This document shows, piece after piece, positions 4,734-9,610 of a DNA stretch of 64,000 nt. This DNA comes from Actinoplanes utahensis (GTDB lineage Bacteria; Actinomycetota; Actinomycetes; Mycobacteriales; Micromonosporaceae). A model generated the notes under the pieces. The model made no database searches and had not been told where the DNA came from. It saw only the letters and a list, made by a program, of their open reading frames with translations. The first letter of the stretch is position 1, and each line of letters begins with the position of its first letter. The translations under genes were made by a program, and so were the position numbers. The stretch spans positions 1-64,000 of the forward strand of contig NZ_BOMZ01000033.1 in NCBI RefSeq assembly GCF_016862455.1, given 5' to 3'.

Positions 4734-4904
4734 GTGACGAACCGATACGAGCGTCTCAGGATGCAGCGCCGGATCCGCCTGGTGCTGGAGGAACGGCGGG
4801 CCGCCTTCGCGGGGCGGGACTCCGAGCCGGCAGTGGATCCGGAAGCGACCATGGAGATCCCCCCACCGCAGCGTGCCGTGGGGCGGGTGACCGTCCGATA
4901 TTGA
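4734..4904 (+). CDS. Small hypothetical protein, 56 residues
   Basis: I do not recognise this protein. It begins at GTG 4734, eight bases after a good ribosome site GAAGGAG (4719-4725), and ends at TGA 4902-4904, just before the dapE stop on the other strand. The N-terminal half is strongly basic (TNRYERLRMQRRIRLVLEERR) and the C-terminal half is acidic/proline-rich. It is divergent from the LOG pair; a possible -10 TACTGT lies near 4683. No membrane segment or signal peptide is visible. Ribosome site and codon use support it as a real gene. Confidence 0.6.
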   Translation: MTNRYERLRMQRRIRLVLEERRAAFAGRDSEPAVDPEATMEIPPPQRAVGRVTVRY

Positions 4905-4907
4905 GCA

Positions 4908-5978
4908 CTAGGGAGCGAGCCAGCGGTAAAGGGTGGCGACCCCGTCCCGGATCTTGCCGATCTCGACGTGCTCGTCCGGCGCGTGCGCGAGCGACGGGTC
5001 GCCCGGGCCGTAATTGAGCGCCGGGACGCCGAGGGCGGCGAACCGGGCCACGTCGGTCCAGCCCAGCTTGCCGGCCGGCTCGATGCCGACGGCGGCGAGG
5101 AACTCGCGGGCCGGGGCGGCGTCCAGGCCGGGCAGCGCGCCGGGGGCCGAGTCGGTGACCTCGAGGTCGAAGCCGTCGAACACCTCGCGCAGGTGCTCGA
5201 GGGCCTGGTCCTCCGAGCGGTCCGGGGCGAACCGCAGGTTGACGTCGACACTGCACTCGTCGGGCACCACGTTGCCGGCGACGCCGCCGGAGATCCGGAC
5301 CGCGCTCAGGCCCTCCCGGTAGGTGCAGCCGTCGATGGTGACCGTCCGCGGGTGGTATTTCTCCAGCCTGCGCAGCACCTCGCCGGCGGCGTGGATGGCG
5401 TTGACCCCGCGCCAGGCACGGGCGGTGTGCGCGCGCCGGCCCCGGGTGCGCACCCGCACCCGCATGGTGCCCTGGCAGCCGGCCTCGACGGTCCCGAACG
5501 TGGGTTCGAGCAGCACCGCCAGGTCGGCCTCGAGCCATTTCGGGTGCTCGCGGGCGACCAGGTTGAGCCCGTTGAACTCGGACTCGATCTCCTCGGCCTC
5601 GTAGAACAGGTAGGTCAGGTCGTACTGCGGGTCGGGGAGGGTGACGGCCAGGTGCAGGGCGAGGGCGACGCCGGCCTTCATGTCGGCGGTGCCGCAGCCG
5701 TAGATCAGGTCGTCGACGACGGTGGACGGCAGGTTGCCGTTGACCGGGACGGTGTCCAGGTGGCCCGCGAGGATCACCCGCTGTTCGCGGCCGAGCTTGG
5801 TACGGGCCATCACCGTGTTGCCCACGCGGCGCACGCTCAGGTGCGACACCTTGGCGAGGACGTCCTCGACGCAGTCGGCGATCACCTTCTCGTCGCGGGA
5901 GACGGACTGGATGTCGACCAGGGCGCGGGTCAGCACGACCGGGTCGACCAGCACGTCCGGGGTAAGCGGGTTGGCCAT
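4908..5978 (-). CDS. dapE: Succinyl-diaminopimelate desuccinylase
   Basis: A 356-residue M20 metallohydrolase that removes succinate from N-succinyl-LL-diaminopimelate, giving LL-DAP for lysine and peptidoglycan. Seen: metal ligand regions LAGHLDTVPV and GCGTADMKAG, the Glu pair in YEAEEIESEFNGL, and dimerisation-domain sequence GRRAHTARAWRGVNAIHA. Length fits actinobacterial DapE. Start is ATG 5976-5978 (MANPLTPD). The same frame stays open far upstream because it lies antisense to dapD, so longer starts are rejected. It is divergent from dapD, the preceding pathway enzyme but one, across only 66 bp. Confidence 0.95.
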   Translation of the reverse strand: MANPLTPDVLVDPVVLTRALVDIQSVSRDEKVIADCVEDVLAKVSHLSVRRVGNTVMARTKLGREQRVILAGHLDTVPVNGNLPSTVVDDLIYGCGTADMKAGVALALHLAVTLPDPQYDLTYLFYEAEEIESEFNGLNLVAREHPKWLEADLAVLLEPTFGTVEAGCQGTMRVRVRTRGRRAHTARAWRGVNAIHAAGEVLRRLEKYHPRTVTIDGCTYREGLSAVRISGGVAGNVVPDECSVDVNLRFAPDRSEDQALEHLREVFDGFDLEVTDSAPGALPGLDAAPAREFLAAVGIEPAGKLGWTDVARFAALGVPALNYGPGDPSLAHAPDEHVEIGKIRDGVATLYRWLAP

Positions 5979-6031
5979 GTGCGCACCATACCGGGGGGCG
6001 ACGAGCCAACTGACGGCCAATGAGGCTCCGG

Positions 6032-6044
6032 TAAAGTTCGCCTC
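6032..6044 (+). promoter_or_regulatory. Leaderless -10 element for dapD
   Basis: TAAAGT at 6032-6037 is followed by seven bases and then the GTG start at 6045, the geometry of a leaderless actinobacterial promoter (transcription begins at or very near the start codon). There is no ribosome site. Confidence 0.6.
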
Positions 6045-6992
6045 GTGGAAACCGTGATCTCGACTTCGCCCGCCTGGGGCATCGGCCTCGCCACCGTGAC
6101 CGCCGACGGCCAGGTCCTGGACACCTGGTTCCCGGCCGGCTTCCTGGGCCTCGGTGAGGAGCCTGCCGACGCGCCGGCGCTCCCGGCCGGGCAGACCGGG
6201 CCGAAGCTTCTTCCCGGACTGAGCACCGTCGAGGTGCGGGTGACGGTCAAGTCGCTGGCCGACCCGATCGCCGACGCCTCGGACGCGTACCTGCGCCTGC
6301 ACCTGCTGTCCAGCCGCCTGGTCCGGCCGAACGAGCTGAACCTGGACGGCATCTTCGGCAAGCTGGCCAACGTGGCCTGGACCTCGGCCGGCCCGTGTCT
6401 GCCGGAGCAGGTCGACGAGCTGCGTTTCCTGGAGCGCGCGGCGGGCCGTCAGCTCGCCGTCTACGGGGTCGACAAGTTCCCCCGCATGATCGATTACGTG
6501 GTGCCGGCCGGTGTCCGGATCGCCGACGCCGACCGGGTCCGCCTCGGCGCCCATCTGGCGTCCGGCACCACCGTCATGCACGAGGGATTCGTCAACTTCA
6601 ACGCGGGCACGCTCGGCACCTCGATGGTCGAGGGCCGGATCGTGCAGGGCGTGGTGGTCGGTGACGGCTCGGACATCGGCGGCGGCTCGTCGATCATGGG
6701 CACGCTCTCCGGCGGCGGCAAGGAGAAGGTGCGCATCGGCGAGCGCAGCCTGCTCGGCGCGAACGCGGGTGTGGGAATCTCGCTCGGCGACGACTGCGTG
6801 GTCGAGGCGGGCGTCTACATCACCGCCGCCTCGAAGATCACGCTGCCCGACGGCCGTGTGGTGAAGGCCATCGAGCTGTCCGGTGTGAACAATCTCCTGT
6901 TCTGGCGCAACTCGGTCTCCGGCGCCCTGGAGGCGAAGCCGCGCAAGGGCACCGGCATCGAGCTGAACAGCGCGCTGCACGCCAACGACTGA
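6045..6992 (+). CDS. dapD: Tetrahydrodipicolinate N-succinyltransferase
   Basis: A 315-residue left-handed beta-helix acyltransferase that succinylates tetrahydrodipicolinate in the DAP/lysine pathway. Seen: long hexapeptide-type repeats in the middle ([63 protein letters not shown]) and an N-terminal domain typical of the actinobacterial DapD class. Start is GTG 6045 with a leaderless -10. It is divergent from dapE and ends eight bases before the lysG stop, so lysine synthesis and export genes sit together. Confidence 0.95.
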
Positions 6993-7000
6993 TCTCTCTC

Positions 7001-7813
7001 CTATCGCAGGACCAGGGCGGCCGCCGTGCGAACGGCGGCCGTCAGCGCGTCCAGGCTCGGCGAGGAGAGCCGCCAGCACTGCCAGTAGAGAGGCACGTCC
7101 AGGTGGCGGCCGGGGCGGATCTCGACGAGGCGGCCGGCCTCCAGGTGCGGGACGGCCTCCCGTTCGTAGAGCATCCCCCAGCCCAGGCCGAGCAGCATCG
7201 CCTGGTTGAAGGCGGCGGTGGCCGGGATGTAGTGCACCGGCGGGTCGTAGCGGGCGGTCAGGAACCGGTGCTGGATCCGGTCCTTGCGGTTGTAGGCGAG
7301 CACCGGTGTCCGGTTCAGATCGGAGATGTCGAGTTTGGGCGCGGCCACCGCCCGATAGCGCATGACGCCCAGCCTCTCCACCCGGCAGCCCTGGACCGGC
7401 ACGTGATCGGCGGTGACCGCGGCCATCACGGCACCGGAGCGCAGCAGGTCCGCGGTGTGATCCTGATCGTCGGTGTGCAGCTCGAAGAGCACGCCGGGCA
7501 GGCTGGTCAGCACCGGCAGGAACCAGCTGTCCAGCGAGTCGGCGTTGACCACCACGGAGAGCCGGGTGGTCTCGGCGCCGAAGAGCTCGCCCTCCAGCAG
7601 CGCGACCTGGTTGGCGAACCGCAGCACGGCCTCGCCGGCGACGGTGGCCGCGCACGGCTTGGCGCGCCGCACCAGGACCTGGCCGACACTCTGCTCGAGG
7701 GCTTTGATCCGCTGACTGACCGCGGACGGCGTGACGTGCAACACCCGTGCCGCCGCCTCGAAACCACCCTGCTCCACGACGGCCTGGAAGGTCGCCAACT
7801 GCACCTGGTCCAC
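7001..7813 (-). CDS. lysG: LysR-type regulator of the lysine exporter (ArgP/LysG family)
   Basis: A 270-residue LysR-type regulator. The N-terminal winged helix-turn-helix is clear (LATFQAVVEQGGFEAAARVLHVTPSAVSQRIKALE), followed by a periplasmic-binding-protein-like effector domain. ArgP/LysG proteins sense lysine, arginine or histidine and activate the divergent exporter gene, and lysE is exactly there. Start is GTG 7811-7813, preceded by TAAATT-N7, a leaderless arrangement. The length and the AVSQRIKALEQ recognition helix fit the IciA/ArgP/LysG subfamily. Confidence 0.92.
   Translation of the reverse strand: MDQVQLATFQAVVEQGGFEAAARVLHVTPSAVSQRIKALEQSVGQVLVRRAKPCAATVAGEAVLRFANQVALLEGELFGAETTRLSVVVNADSLDSWFLPVLTSLPGVLFELHTDDQDHTADLLRSGAVMAAVTADHVPVQGCRVERLGVMRYRAVAAPKLDISDLNRTPVLAYNRKDRIQHRFLTARYDPPVHYIPATAAFNQAMLLGLGWGMLYEREAVPHLEAGRLVEIRPGRHLDVPLYWQCWRLSSPSLDALTAAVRTAAALVLR
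7019..7040. terminator. Hairpin at dapD/lysG convergent ends
   Basis: GGCCGCCGT (7019-7027), loop GCGA, ACGGCGGCC (7032-7040): a perfect 9-bp stem lying inside the last codons of lysG, 27 bases after the dapD stop. No U-tract. It may end dapD transcription. Confidence 0.45.
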
Positions 7814-7883
7814 GTTAGAGAATTTAATCCATCTTGAGAATGATTAGCTGGAGCTTGGTTCGCCCGGACCGTAGCGTCGGATC
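7814..7883. promoter_or_regulatory. Divergent lysG-lysE control region
   Basis: This 70-bp AT-richer region holds two facing leaderless promoters: TAAATT (minus strand, 7821-7826) seven bases before the lysG GTG, and TAGCGT (7872-7877) six bases before the lysE ATG. An inverted repeat TAATC (7825-7829) / GATTA (7842-7846) with a 12-bp spacer is a candidate LysG site overlapping the lysG -10. Confidence 0.6.
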
Positions 7884-8483
7884 ATGGCCTCCTCCGCTTT
7901 AGCCGGTTTTGTCGCGTCGGCTGTCCTGATCATCGCCATCGGCGCCCAGAACGCGTTCGTCCTGCGCCAAGGCCTGCGCCGGGAACACGTGCTCCCGGTC
8001 GTGCTCACCTGCGCCCTCTCCGACCTGGCGCTGATCTCCGCCGGGATCGCCGGCCTCGGCGCCGCGATCGAGGCGCGACCGGGGCTGATCACGGTGATCC
8101 GCTACGCCGGGGCCGCCTTCCTGATCGGCTACGCGGTGCTCGCCGCCGGCCGGGCGCTGCGCCCGCAGGCGATGGACCCGGCGGCGAAGGCCCCGGCCAC
8201 CCTCCGGGCGACCCTGCTCACCTGCCTCGCGCTGACCTACCTCAACCCGCACGTCTATCTGGACACCGTGCTGCTGCTCGGCTCGGTCGCGCAACAGCAC
8301 GCCGACCGCTGGTCGTTCGGCCTGGGCGCGGCGGCCGCCAGCCTGACCTGGTTCGTCACGCTCGGCCTCGGCGCGCGGAGACTGGCCCCGCTGCTGGCCC
8401 GGCCGGGCGCCTGGCGGGTGCTCGACGCCCTGATCGCCCTGGTCATGGCAGCGCTGGGAACCATGCTTCTGATTCAGGCCTGA
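7884..8483 (+). CDS. lysE: LysE/ArgO-family amino acid exporter
   Basis: A 199-residue inner-membrane exporter that expels excess basic amino acids. Seen: about five to six hydrophobic segments, the family hallmark [20 protein letters not shown] near the N-terminus and the conserved [18 protein letters not shown] in the middle. Start is ATG 7884, six bases after a -10 TAGCGT, so probably leaderless. Divergent from lysG, its expected activator. Lysine or arginine is the likely substrate; the sequence alone does not decide between them. Confidence 0.93.
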
Positions 8484-8521: not shown

Positions 8522-8552
8522 TTGACTCTCGACGAGGTCGAGACACCAGGGT
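8522..8552 (+). promoter_or_regulatory. MerR-type promoter/operator
   Basis: TTGACT (-35, 8522-8527) and CAGGGT (-10, 8547-8552) are 19 bp apart, the over-long spacing that MerR-family regulators untwist. The spacer holds a perfect palindrome TCTCGAC-GAG-GTCGAGA (8527-8543). The regulator gene follows immediately, so autoregulation is likely. Confidence 0.75.
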
Positions 8553-8572
8553 TCGAGGACGTGGAGAGCGAC

Positions 8573-9610
8573 ATGCGAGGCATCGGCGAGGTGGCCCGGG
8601 CCAGTGGGCTGAGCGTCAGCGCGCTGCGGTTCTACGACGGCGCGGGCGTGCTGGTCCCCGCCGCGGTGGACCCGGCGACCGGCTATCGCCGGTACACCAC
8701 GGACCAGATCAAGGCGGCCCGGCTCATCGCCGGGCTGCGGCGGGTGGGCATGCCGGTCGCCGAGATCGCCGCGGCGGTGCGCGACATGCGGAACCCCGCG
8801 CTGGTACGGGTGACGCTGGACACCCATCTCACCCGCCTGGAGTCCGGTCTCGCCGACGCCCGGCGTGAGCTCCTCCGCCTGCACACCCTGCTCGACCTGG
8901 AGGAGAACCTGATGACCCGGATCACCCTGACCGCCGCCGACCTGTCCGCCGCGTTCGGCGCCGTGCTGTTCGCAGCTGCCGGATCCACCGGCCCGATCCC
9001 GGCCGGCGTGCTGCTGGAGACCGGCGACGGCACCGTCACGCTGGCCGCCACCGACCGCTACCGGATCGCCGTCGCCTCGGTCACCGCCACCGTCGAAGGT
9101 TCCGCGGCCCGGCTCTTCCTGCCGTTCGGTCTCGCCGGGGACCTGCACGACCTCCGCTCCGGCACGCTCACCCTCGACCTGACCGCCGACCGGGTCACCG
9201 CGACCGGTTCCACCGGCCGGGTGGTCGAGGGCAAGCCTCTCGACATGGAGTTCCCCGACTACCGGCGCCTGATCGACCCGGGCCCGCAACGGGTCACCGT
9301 CGACGCCGGCGCCCTGCGCGACCTGATCGCCGGCGCCCCGGTGATCGACCGGGAGCACGAGGGGCGGCCCTACCCGGTGTCGGTGCTGGCGGTCGGCCCG
9401 GACGGCGATCTCCGGGCCGTCGGCGCCGACGAGTGGGCCGCCGGCGCCGACTCGCACATCGCGGTCAACCGGGAGTTCTTGCTGCAGGCCGTGGACGCGG
9501 GCGGCCCCGGACAGCTCGTGCTCGCACTGGACGGCCCGGTCCAGCCGCTCGTGATCCGCCCGGTGGGTGAAGAGTCCCGTTTCTCGCTACTGATGCCGGT
9601 CCGCCACTGA
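8573..9610 (+). CDS. MerR regulator fused to a DNA polymerase III beta-clamp-like domain
   Basis: 345 residues from ATG 8573 (GGAG at 8562-8565). Residues 1-70 are a MerR winged helix (IGEVARASGLSVSALRFYD, GYRRYT) and 75-112 a dimerisation helix. From about 115 the protein resembles the second and third domains of the beta sliding clamp: a VLLETGDGTVTLAATDRYRIA stretch near residue 146-166, a PDYRRLIDPGP linker and the typical C-terminus LLMPVRH. The first clamp domain is missing. A TTG at 8522 in frame is really the -35 box. The clamp-like part probably senses a ligand or binds a replication/repair partner; this is inference. The regulatory target may be only its own promoter. Confidence 0.85.
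   Translation: MRGIGEVARASGLSVSALRFYDGAGVLVPAAVDPATGYRRYTTDQIKAARLIAGLRRVGMPVAEIAAAVRDMRNPALVRVTLDTHLTRLESGLADARRELLRLHTLLDLEENLMTRITLTAADLSAAFGAVLFAAAGSTGPIPAGVLLETGDGTVTLAATDRYRIAVASVTATVEGSAARLFLPFGLAGDLHDLRSGTLTLDLTADRVTATGSTGRVVEGKPLDMEFPDYRRLIDPGPQRVTVDAGALRDLIAGAPVIDREHEGRPYPVSVLAVGPDGDLRAVGADEWAAGADSHIAVNREFLLQAVDAGGPGQLVLALDGPVQPLVIRPVGEESRFSLLMPVRH

Follow-up and report, generated by a model that had tools for sequence, protein, structure and literature searches.

A gene in the window (the whole 64,000-nucleotide stretch of DNA analysed here, from the soil bacterium Actinoplanes utahensis) encodes a protein that joins a MerR DNA-binding and dimerization region to domains II and III of the sliding clamp, without clamp domain I. 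On balance, we favour the view that this fusion is an autoregulated MerR activator detecting compounds that bind the clamp pocket, so that a copy of the target serves as the ligand domain; antibiotics of the griselimycin/mycoplanecin kind would be the likeliest ligands. Computational evidence supports the architecture, the operator, its autoregulatory position, the target genes, the conservation of the pocket and a conserved internal start signal. The coding sequence and its parts are as follows:

8573..9610, + strand: coding sequence of the MerR-clamp regulator, 345 amino acids plus stop, counted from the ATG
8573..8911, + strand: MerR winged helix-turn-helix and long dimerization helix (residues 1-113; MerR_1 at residues 4-68; modelled helix at 75-113)
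8915..9280, + strand: clamp domain II-like region (about residues 115-236, boundary approximate; DNA_pol3_beta_2 at residues 124-229, TIGR00663 and Foldseek)
9284..9607, + strand: clamp domain III-like region (about residues 238-345, boundary approximate; DNA_pol3_beta_3 at 290-344, below cut-off, and TIGR00663)

The two halves are recognized by independent means. In the 345-amino-acid reading, the Pfam models MerR_1 (E = 1.7e-13) and MerR (E = 2e-12) both match above their cut-offs, DNA_pol3_beta_2 matches slightly above its own (E = 3.2e-6) and DNA_pol3_beta_3 falls under its own (E = 0.0057). The full-length DnaN model of NCBIfam, TIGR00663 (367 positions), aligns residues 115-344 to model positions 125-366 with E = 3.3e-15 and a score of 55.9 bits, under the cut-off of 137.65; since this alignment begins only at model position 125, clamp domain I is absent. 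The 60 PDB sequence matches listed, of 74, are MerR regulators over the first 111 residues and DnaN over residues 104-344. An AlphaFold2 model built with 18 aligned orthologs reaches a mean pLDDT of 79 and a pTM of 0.61; its confidence drops over the final 25 residues, which form the end of domain III and include the MPVR motif. Its best 50 Foldseek matches of 430 (E up to 0.001, the top one 2e-14) are beta-clamp entries or complexes titled otherwise, namely 8xla (twice) and 8vat (once); chain A of 8xla is itself named beta clamp. The initial annotation had proposed a MerR winged helix with a dimerization helix ending at residue 110, followed by a two-domain clamp fold lacking the first domain. 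Pfam and the model agree with the first part, with the end placed near residue 113, and Pfam, TIGR00663 and Foldseek agree with the second; the fold prediction on which that proposal had been staked gave beta clamps among the matches listed. The clamp ring is usually closed by a contact between domains I and III. Because domain I is missing, the fusion would not form a ring through this contact, and it is not a DnaN; the genome of the window has one separate dnaN match above the family cut-off.

The gene lies directly behind a promoter with the layout of MerR-controlled genes:

8522..8527, + strand: -35 hexamer TTGACT, from the sequence (TTGAC[TC] in 58/58 homologs)
8527..8543, + strand: MerR operator palindrome TCTCGAC-GAG-GTCGAGA, in the 19-bp spacer (8528-8546) plus a flanking base
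8547..8552, + strand: -10 hexamer CAGGGT (CA...T at equal spacing in most of the 58 homologs)
8561..8563, + strand: probable leaderless start GTG (VESDMRGIGE..., 349 amino acids)

All elements described in the initial annotation (i.e. TTGACT, the 19-bp spacer, the 7-3-7 palindrome and CAGGGT) hold as read. Spacers of 19-20 bp are described as typical of MerR promoters (PMC9909328). By itself the palindrome was ruled out as evidence: at the GC content of the window about 12 perfect 7-3-7 repeats would be expected, and 17 are present. We take it as real because its position and spacing are conserved across homologs. This sample of 58 comprises the window, 17 named Actinoplanes/Paractinoplanes loci and 40 loci picked by hand for diversity from the overlapping hit genomes of the family search (109) and class search (26), and is thus not random; by HMM score, we split it into a subfamily A (47 members) and a divergent subfamily B (11 members). 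A block of -35, operator and -10 with the 19-bp spacing stands directly upstream of the gene in 58/58, with loose-consensus scores of 28-31 out of 31. A block scoring at least 28 is also found at 55/55 loci of the family and class searches, which are largely the same genomes. Going by this position, the regulator gene is probably autoregulated. One copy of the regulator (L101) is preceded by tandem, near-identical operators 79 bp apart (G155:C318:15106 and 15185). An in-frame GTG or ATG follows the -10 by 6-8 nt in 58/58 homologs, so the transcript is probably leaderless and translation probably starts at GTG 8561. The TTG at 8522 was rejected as a start codon, being the conserved -35.

The clamp half includes the pocket between domains II and III, which in true clamps takes up peptides and griselimycins. 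Pocket residues were drawn from a review (the account in PMC11139829) and mapped through a PDB alignment, with R152 left unmapped. The motifs, together with the candidate internal start, are:

9050..9064, + strand: pocket motif TDRYR (E. coli T172-R176; T172 and R176 equivalents in 47/47 A and 11/11 B)
9254..9268, + strand: pocket motif PDYRR (E. coli P242-R246; P in 46/47 A and 11/11 B, R246 equivalent in 39/47 A)
9467..9478, + strand: pocket motif NREF (E. coli N320 and Y323, subsite II; N in 43/47 and F/Y in 47/47 A; lost in B)
9593..9604, + strand: pocket motif MPVR (E. coli M362-R365; M and P in 47/47 A and 11/11 B, R in 44/47 A and 3/11 B)
8899..8914, + strand: Shine-Dalgarno GGAGGAG inside the gene, followed by ATG 8912; candidate translation start for a clamp fragment on its own

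By these alignments, the pocket is conserved above the rest of the clamp half. In subfamily A, the mean majority identity is 0.84 at the 17 mapped pocket positions versus 0.57 elsewhere in the clamp half; in subfamily B, it is 0.71 versus 0.58, and subsite II is lost with only subsite I kept. The corresponding P values (5e-6 for A, 0.03 for B) treat alignment columns as independent, which they are not. In addition, the junction between the MerR and clamp parts, a variable linker, carries a translation signal. In the window it reads GGAGGAG AACCTG ATG, with the ATG at 8912. A Shine-Dalgarno core followed by ATG occurs at this junction in 35/47 A members (20/20 within the genus and 15/27 outside it) and 1/11 B members; in non-overlapping control windows the same combination is found in at most 2/47 A members. 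Such an internal start could yield a free clamp fragment, in the manner of TipA/TipAS.

Some genomes carrying the gene also carry the operator elsewhere. A strict form of the operator has 122 sites in 85 of 200 genomes of the family, compared to 0/200 for a reversed-pattern control. These 85 all belong to the 109 genomes with the gene, 24 of which have no strict site, and none (0/91) to those without it; Fisher's test gives 9e-35, or 1e-12 when the count is restricted to the 39 genomes that have non-self sites, values to be read knowing that genomes are not independent. A one-mismatch scan of 35 chosen genomes found the operator in 35/35 (reversed control 0/35), and a narrower pattern allowing up to 2 mismatches found a site in 33/40 genomes of the genus. 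Self and non-self sites among the 122 were sorted by hand from coordinates. The 45 non-self sites precede genes for TPR-like proteins (17), MFS exporters (12, from two families plus one more distant member) and YunG-family proteins (8), or point through the presumptive replication origin towards dnaN (6), and 2 (L196, L204) have no class; classes were assigned by similarity, and Pfam was applied to representatives of three of them (four TPR, two MFS, one YunG). Many targets have a leaderless geometry, their starts lying about 37-39 nt from the -35, and others start at 46-201 nt. In the genome of the window, the first pattern gives two sites, one at the gene itself and one (3 mismatches) on a different contig, where it precedes a TPR-like gene; pattern scans found no operator at an exporter, YunG or dnaN gene there, and its predicted regulon consists of the regulator's own gene and the TPR gene only. 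Six scanned genomes (f21, which we take to be Streptomyces-like) have the self site only.

The TPR-like and YunG targets allow the pattern to be followed gene by gene, in sets of genomes that we selected. In 8/11 subfamily B loci, a TPR-like homolog either forms one protein with the regulator or comes after it. Among 30 TPR loci examined (of 53 matches), 4 sit in the regulator's operon, the stand-alone relatives at 54-100% identity have the operator in 13/13 cases (15-17 of 17 fixed positions) and the 13 other loci, at 48% identity or less, lack it in 13/13 (best 10-12 of 17). Orthology alone only partly predicts which TPR genes bear the operator: a more distant type also has it (L207, L241, L242, L246, L248; 38-42% identity to the window genome's own TPR protein where measured). 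The TPR assignment comes from weak TPR matches under the Pfam cut-offs and one sub-cut-off NCBIfam match. Five YunG genes in operator-bearing genomes match at 18 of 18 positions; the YunG homologs of G056, a genome without the regulator, and of G592 reach at best 12 and 11 of 18, respectively. Among 20 further regions containing sites with up to 1 mismatch, 4 have no class (L196, L204, L210, L213) and 3 belong to another MerR gene (L208, L209, L212). L196 and L204 have perfect operators before a 483-amino-acid protein and a 188-amino-acid membrane-like protein of no recognized class. The other MerR gene represents a separate autoregulated family that has CTCAANNNGCTTGAGACGCCA as its conserved operator; here too, the start lies 38 nt from the -35.

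Genus g4 is probably Micromonospora. Six of its genomes have the operator 73-138 nt downstream of the end of a gene confirmed as dnaA in 6/6 (TIGR00362, E about 1e-156). It points through DnaA-box-like repeats towards dnaN, whose start is 689-701 nt downstream in 6/6; from dnaA, dnaN and the boxes, this region is the presumptive chromosomal origin. A pattern placing the operator beside GTCCAC is present in 19/151 genomes of g4, six of the 19 being those with dnaA and dnaN verified. In the window's genome, 4.1 kb around dnaN hold no operator (best 11 of 18 fixed positions). A 146-amino-acid frame, starting 38 nt past the -35, crosses the DnaA-box region in 4/6 origin loci (L205, L249, L251, L253), and may be a mere by-product of the DnaA boxes.

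As the initial annotation had guessed, similar architectures occur elsewhere in Actinobacteria, over several families of Actinomycetes. At E <= 1e-30, matches are found in 109/200 family genomes and 26/394 class genomes, three of the latter being of the window's family, with some matches partial or split; at E <= 1e-25, they occur in 10/296 phylum genomes, one of which (G980) covers the MerR part only. Within the genus, the family search finds the gene in 34/36 genomes. Plasmids of Streptomyces and Embleya add 6 records (identity about 41-44%), whose annotation goes no further than a MerR regulator. A search of viral contigs with two short peptide patterns matched 10 stretches, none a relative.

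The gene neighbourhood was dropped as a guide to function, no neighbour being widely common among 40 loci except the TPR gene in subfamily B; the largest neighbour cluster consists of antisense frames of the regulator gene itself. The regulator is therefore left unlinked to its own neighbours in the window, one lysE-like on the upstream side and one methyltransferase-like on the downstream side. Judged by eye, 7001-8483 of the window holds divergent genes for a LysR-type regulator and a LysE-type exporter, the latter ending just upstream of the MerR-clamp promoter and lying outside the regulon as defined by the operator. Also by eye, a succinyl-diaminopimelate desuccinylase (- strand) diverges from a tetrahydrodipicolinate succinyltransferase (+ strand) at 4756-6992, a lysine/diaminopimelate pair near this exporter. 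Elsewhere, 6 or 7 loci from five genera of the family (L088, L090, L091, L094, L099, L103, L104) have upstream genes in common, including one for a regulator-like protein of about 1000 amino acids on the opposite strand, 3-4 kb away.

Published findings bear on how these pieces might fit together. Griselimycins and mycoplanecins bind the sliding-clamp pocket (PMC10817943), and the account given there proposes that the second dnaN of the mycoplanecin producer (mypR), like griR of griselimycin, serves self-resistance. Mycobacterial griselimycin resistance is described with amplification of the dnaN/ori region, suggesting overexpression of dnaN (PMC5694481, PMC8765428). TipA is described as an autoregulated, drug-binding MerR protein with two start codons (PMC7762955). 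Taken with the conserved pocket and the predicted regulon, these precedents lead us to propose a sensor and decoy for clamp-binding antibiotics. Specifically, a dimer of the regulator would sit on the over-long 19-bp spacer, and a ligand in the clamp pocket would cause the promoter to be untwisted and the regulator's own gene to be turned on. The drug would next be mopped up by decoys: the full-length protein itself, joined in the main subfamily by the clamp fragment from the internal start. Copies of this operator elsewhere would turn on the TPR-like protein. Which further target responds would vary between genomes: an MFS exporter, a YunG-family protein or, by transcription that runs through oriC, dnaN and with it more target. 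The ligand, the direction of regulation, the decoy action and the use of the internal start are what we infer in this scheme. The exporters, along with a TipA-like, probably autoregulated gene containing a candidate internal start, are what make a clamp-directed antibiotic the favoured ligand. The initial annotation had suggested sensing of replication, repair or clamp-binding peptides: a binder of the clamp pocket agrees with the pocket conservation and with dnaN as a predicted target in some genomes, but a replication or repair signal is not the best fit when 12/45 non-self operators precede MFS exporters.

Several observations count against a drug sensor. The gene's presence in nearly every genome of the genus sits uneasily with the few clamp-binding antibiotics known to us. 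Subsite II is lost in subfamily B, the oriC operator was found in a minority of one genus, and the 24 gene-bearing genomes without a strict site also weigh on this side, as do the two sites (self and TPR) of the window's genome and the self-only sites of f21. The boldest form of the proposal is a target-decoy regulator, its ligand domain a duplicated piece of an antibiotic's target, that senses attack on the clamp, floods the cell with internal-start fragments and, in some species, fires an origin promoter that raises dnaN; we hold it tentatively, and with some doubt. If true, one operator would tie together antibiotic sensing, efflux and the replication origin.

The main rival to a drug sensor is the sensing of natural clamp partners. 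Here, the clamp half would bind the cell's own clamp-binding motifs (e.g. those of Pol III alpha, the clamp loader, DnaE2/ImuB or MutS), report free partners or a shortage of DnaN, and adjust dnaN and other genes as an endogenous sensor of clamp or replisome homeostasis. We regard this as unlikely, if still worth serious attention. A pocket conserved much like that of true DnaN, the targeting of dnaN with oriC in one genus and the near-universal, housekeeping-like presence of the gene in the window's genus would all be expected. On the other hand, only 6/45 non-self sites point to dnaN compared to twice as many at MFS exporters, the gene is patchy outside the family (the 26 class genomes of 394, including three of the family) and plentiful clamp partners would presumably hold the regulator on.

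A second explanation, which we consider improbable, is that the clamp fold has been adapted to some unrelated ligand, be it another drug or a metabolite, and that the pocket residues are inherited structure rather than a working site. In its favour, subfamily B no longer has subsite II, yet its operator has an unchanged layout and the TPR partner is still there, and MFS exporters would fit any drug; but in subfamily A conservation is concentrated in the pocket while the domain around it diverges, and the link to dnaN would have to be a coincidence. It is very improbable that a different MerR regulator, present in the same genomes, owns the trans operators and that the fusion controls itself only: the window's genome has 37 MerR_1 matches, another autoregulated MerR family has a similar operator (L208, L209, L212) and a MerR match (E = 1e-8) lies near 1 of the 13 operator-bearing TPR loci (L138), but the same block stands upstream of the fusion gene in every homolog sampled, its strict form is absent from all 91 genomes without the gene, the TPR gene adjoins the regulator in most subfamily B loci and the other 12 operator-bearing TPR loci have no MerR match within their 1.5 kb flanks.

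To return to the drug-sensor reading, the closest relatives in design are TipA of Streptomyces lividans (TipAL/TipAS) and the TipA class (Mta, SkgA, AlbA), which also combine a MerR N-terminus with a C-terminal ligand domain. Autoregulation, here judged by operator position, and a candidate internal start freeing the ligand domain would be further points of likeness; TipA is described as a minimal autoregulated multidrug-resistance system (PMC7762955). In contrast, the ligand domain TipAS (PF07739) is unrelated to the sliding-clamp-derived one of the fusion and is not among its Pfam matches at E up to 1, and the predicted regulon of the fusion differs, with exporters and in places dnaN. By analogy, the fusion may work like TipA, yet it would not be a TipA. 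BmrR is likewise a MerR multidrug regulator, and the best PDB sequence matches of the MerR half are chains of the 'multidrug-efflux transporter 1 regulator', over residues 3-71 only; its ligand domain is described as GyrI-like (PMC7762955), whereas that of the fusion is clamp-like. The clamps DnaN, GriR and MypR share domains II-III and most pocket residues with the fusion, which differs in lacking domain I and in being joined to a DNA-binding domain. A named relative is a 'MerR family transcriptional regulator' on Streptomyces atratus plasmids (PLSDB, three records), about 43% identical over its full length, whose annotation does not name the clamp half.

Among the titles and abstract openings listed, from a library with few of the subscription papers, there was no description of a MerR-clamp fusion; in the TipA paper, 'sliding clamp' occurs only in a reference title. 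The MerR mechanism is already known, and the fusion would, by analogy, belong with the drug-sensing MerR regulators as a variant of this class. To our knowledge, neither a clamp serving as MerR ligand domain nor an oriC that contains a MerR operator has been described before.

The DNA sliding clamp is a target of drugs against tuberculosis. Related regulators seem to govern drug pumps, and some species appear to have the clamp gene itself under such control; this suggests an alarm against antibiotics that jam the clamp. If this is true, a drug target has been recycled as sensor and decoy, a regulated promoter inside the chromosomal origin controls the clamp gene, and the system would provide a ready-made biosensor and resistance switch for sliding-clamp inhibitors. 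It would also suggest that bacteria of wide occurrence meet these inhibitors in soil often enough to maintain an alarm devoted to them.
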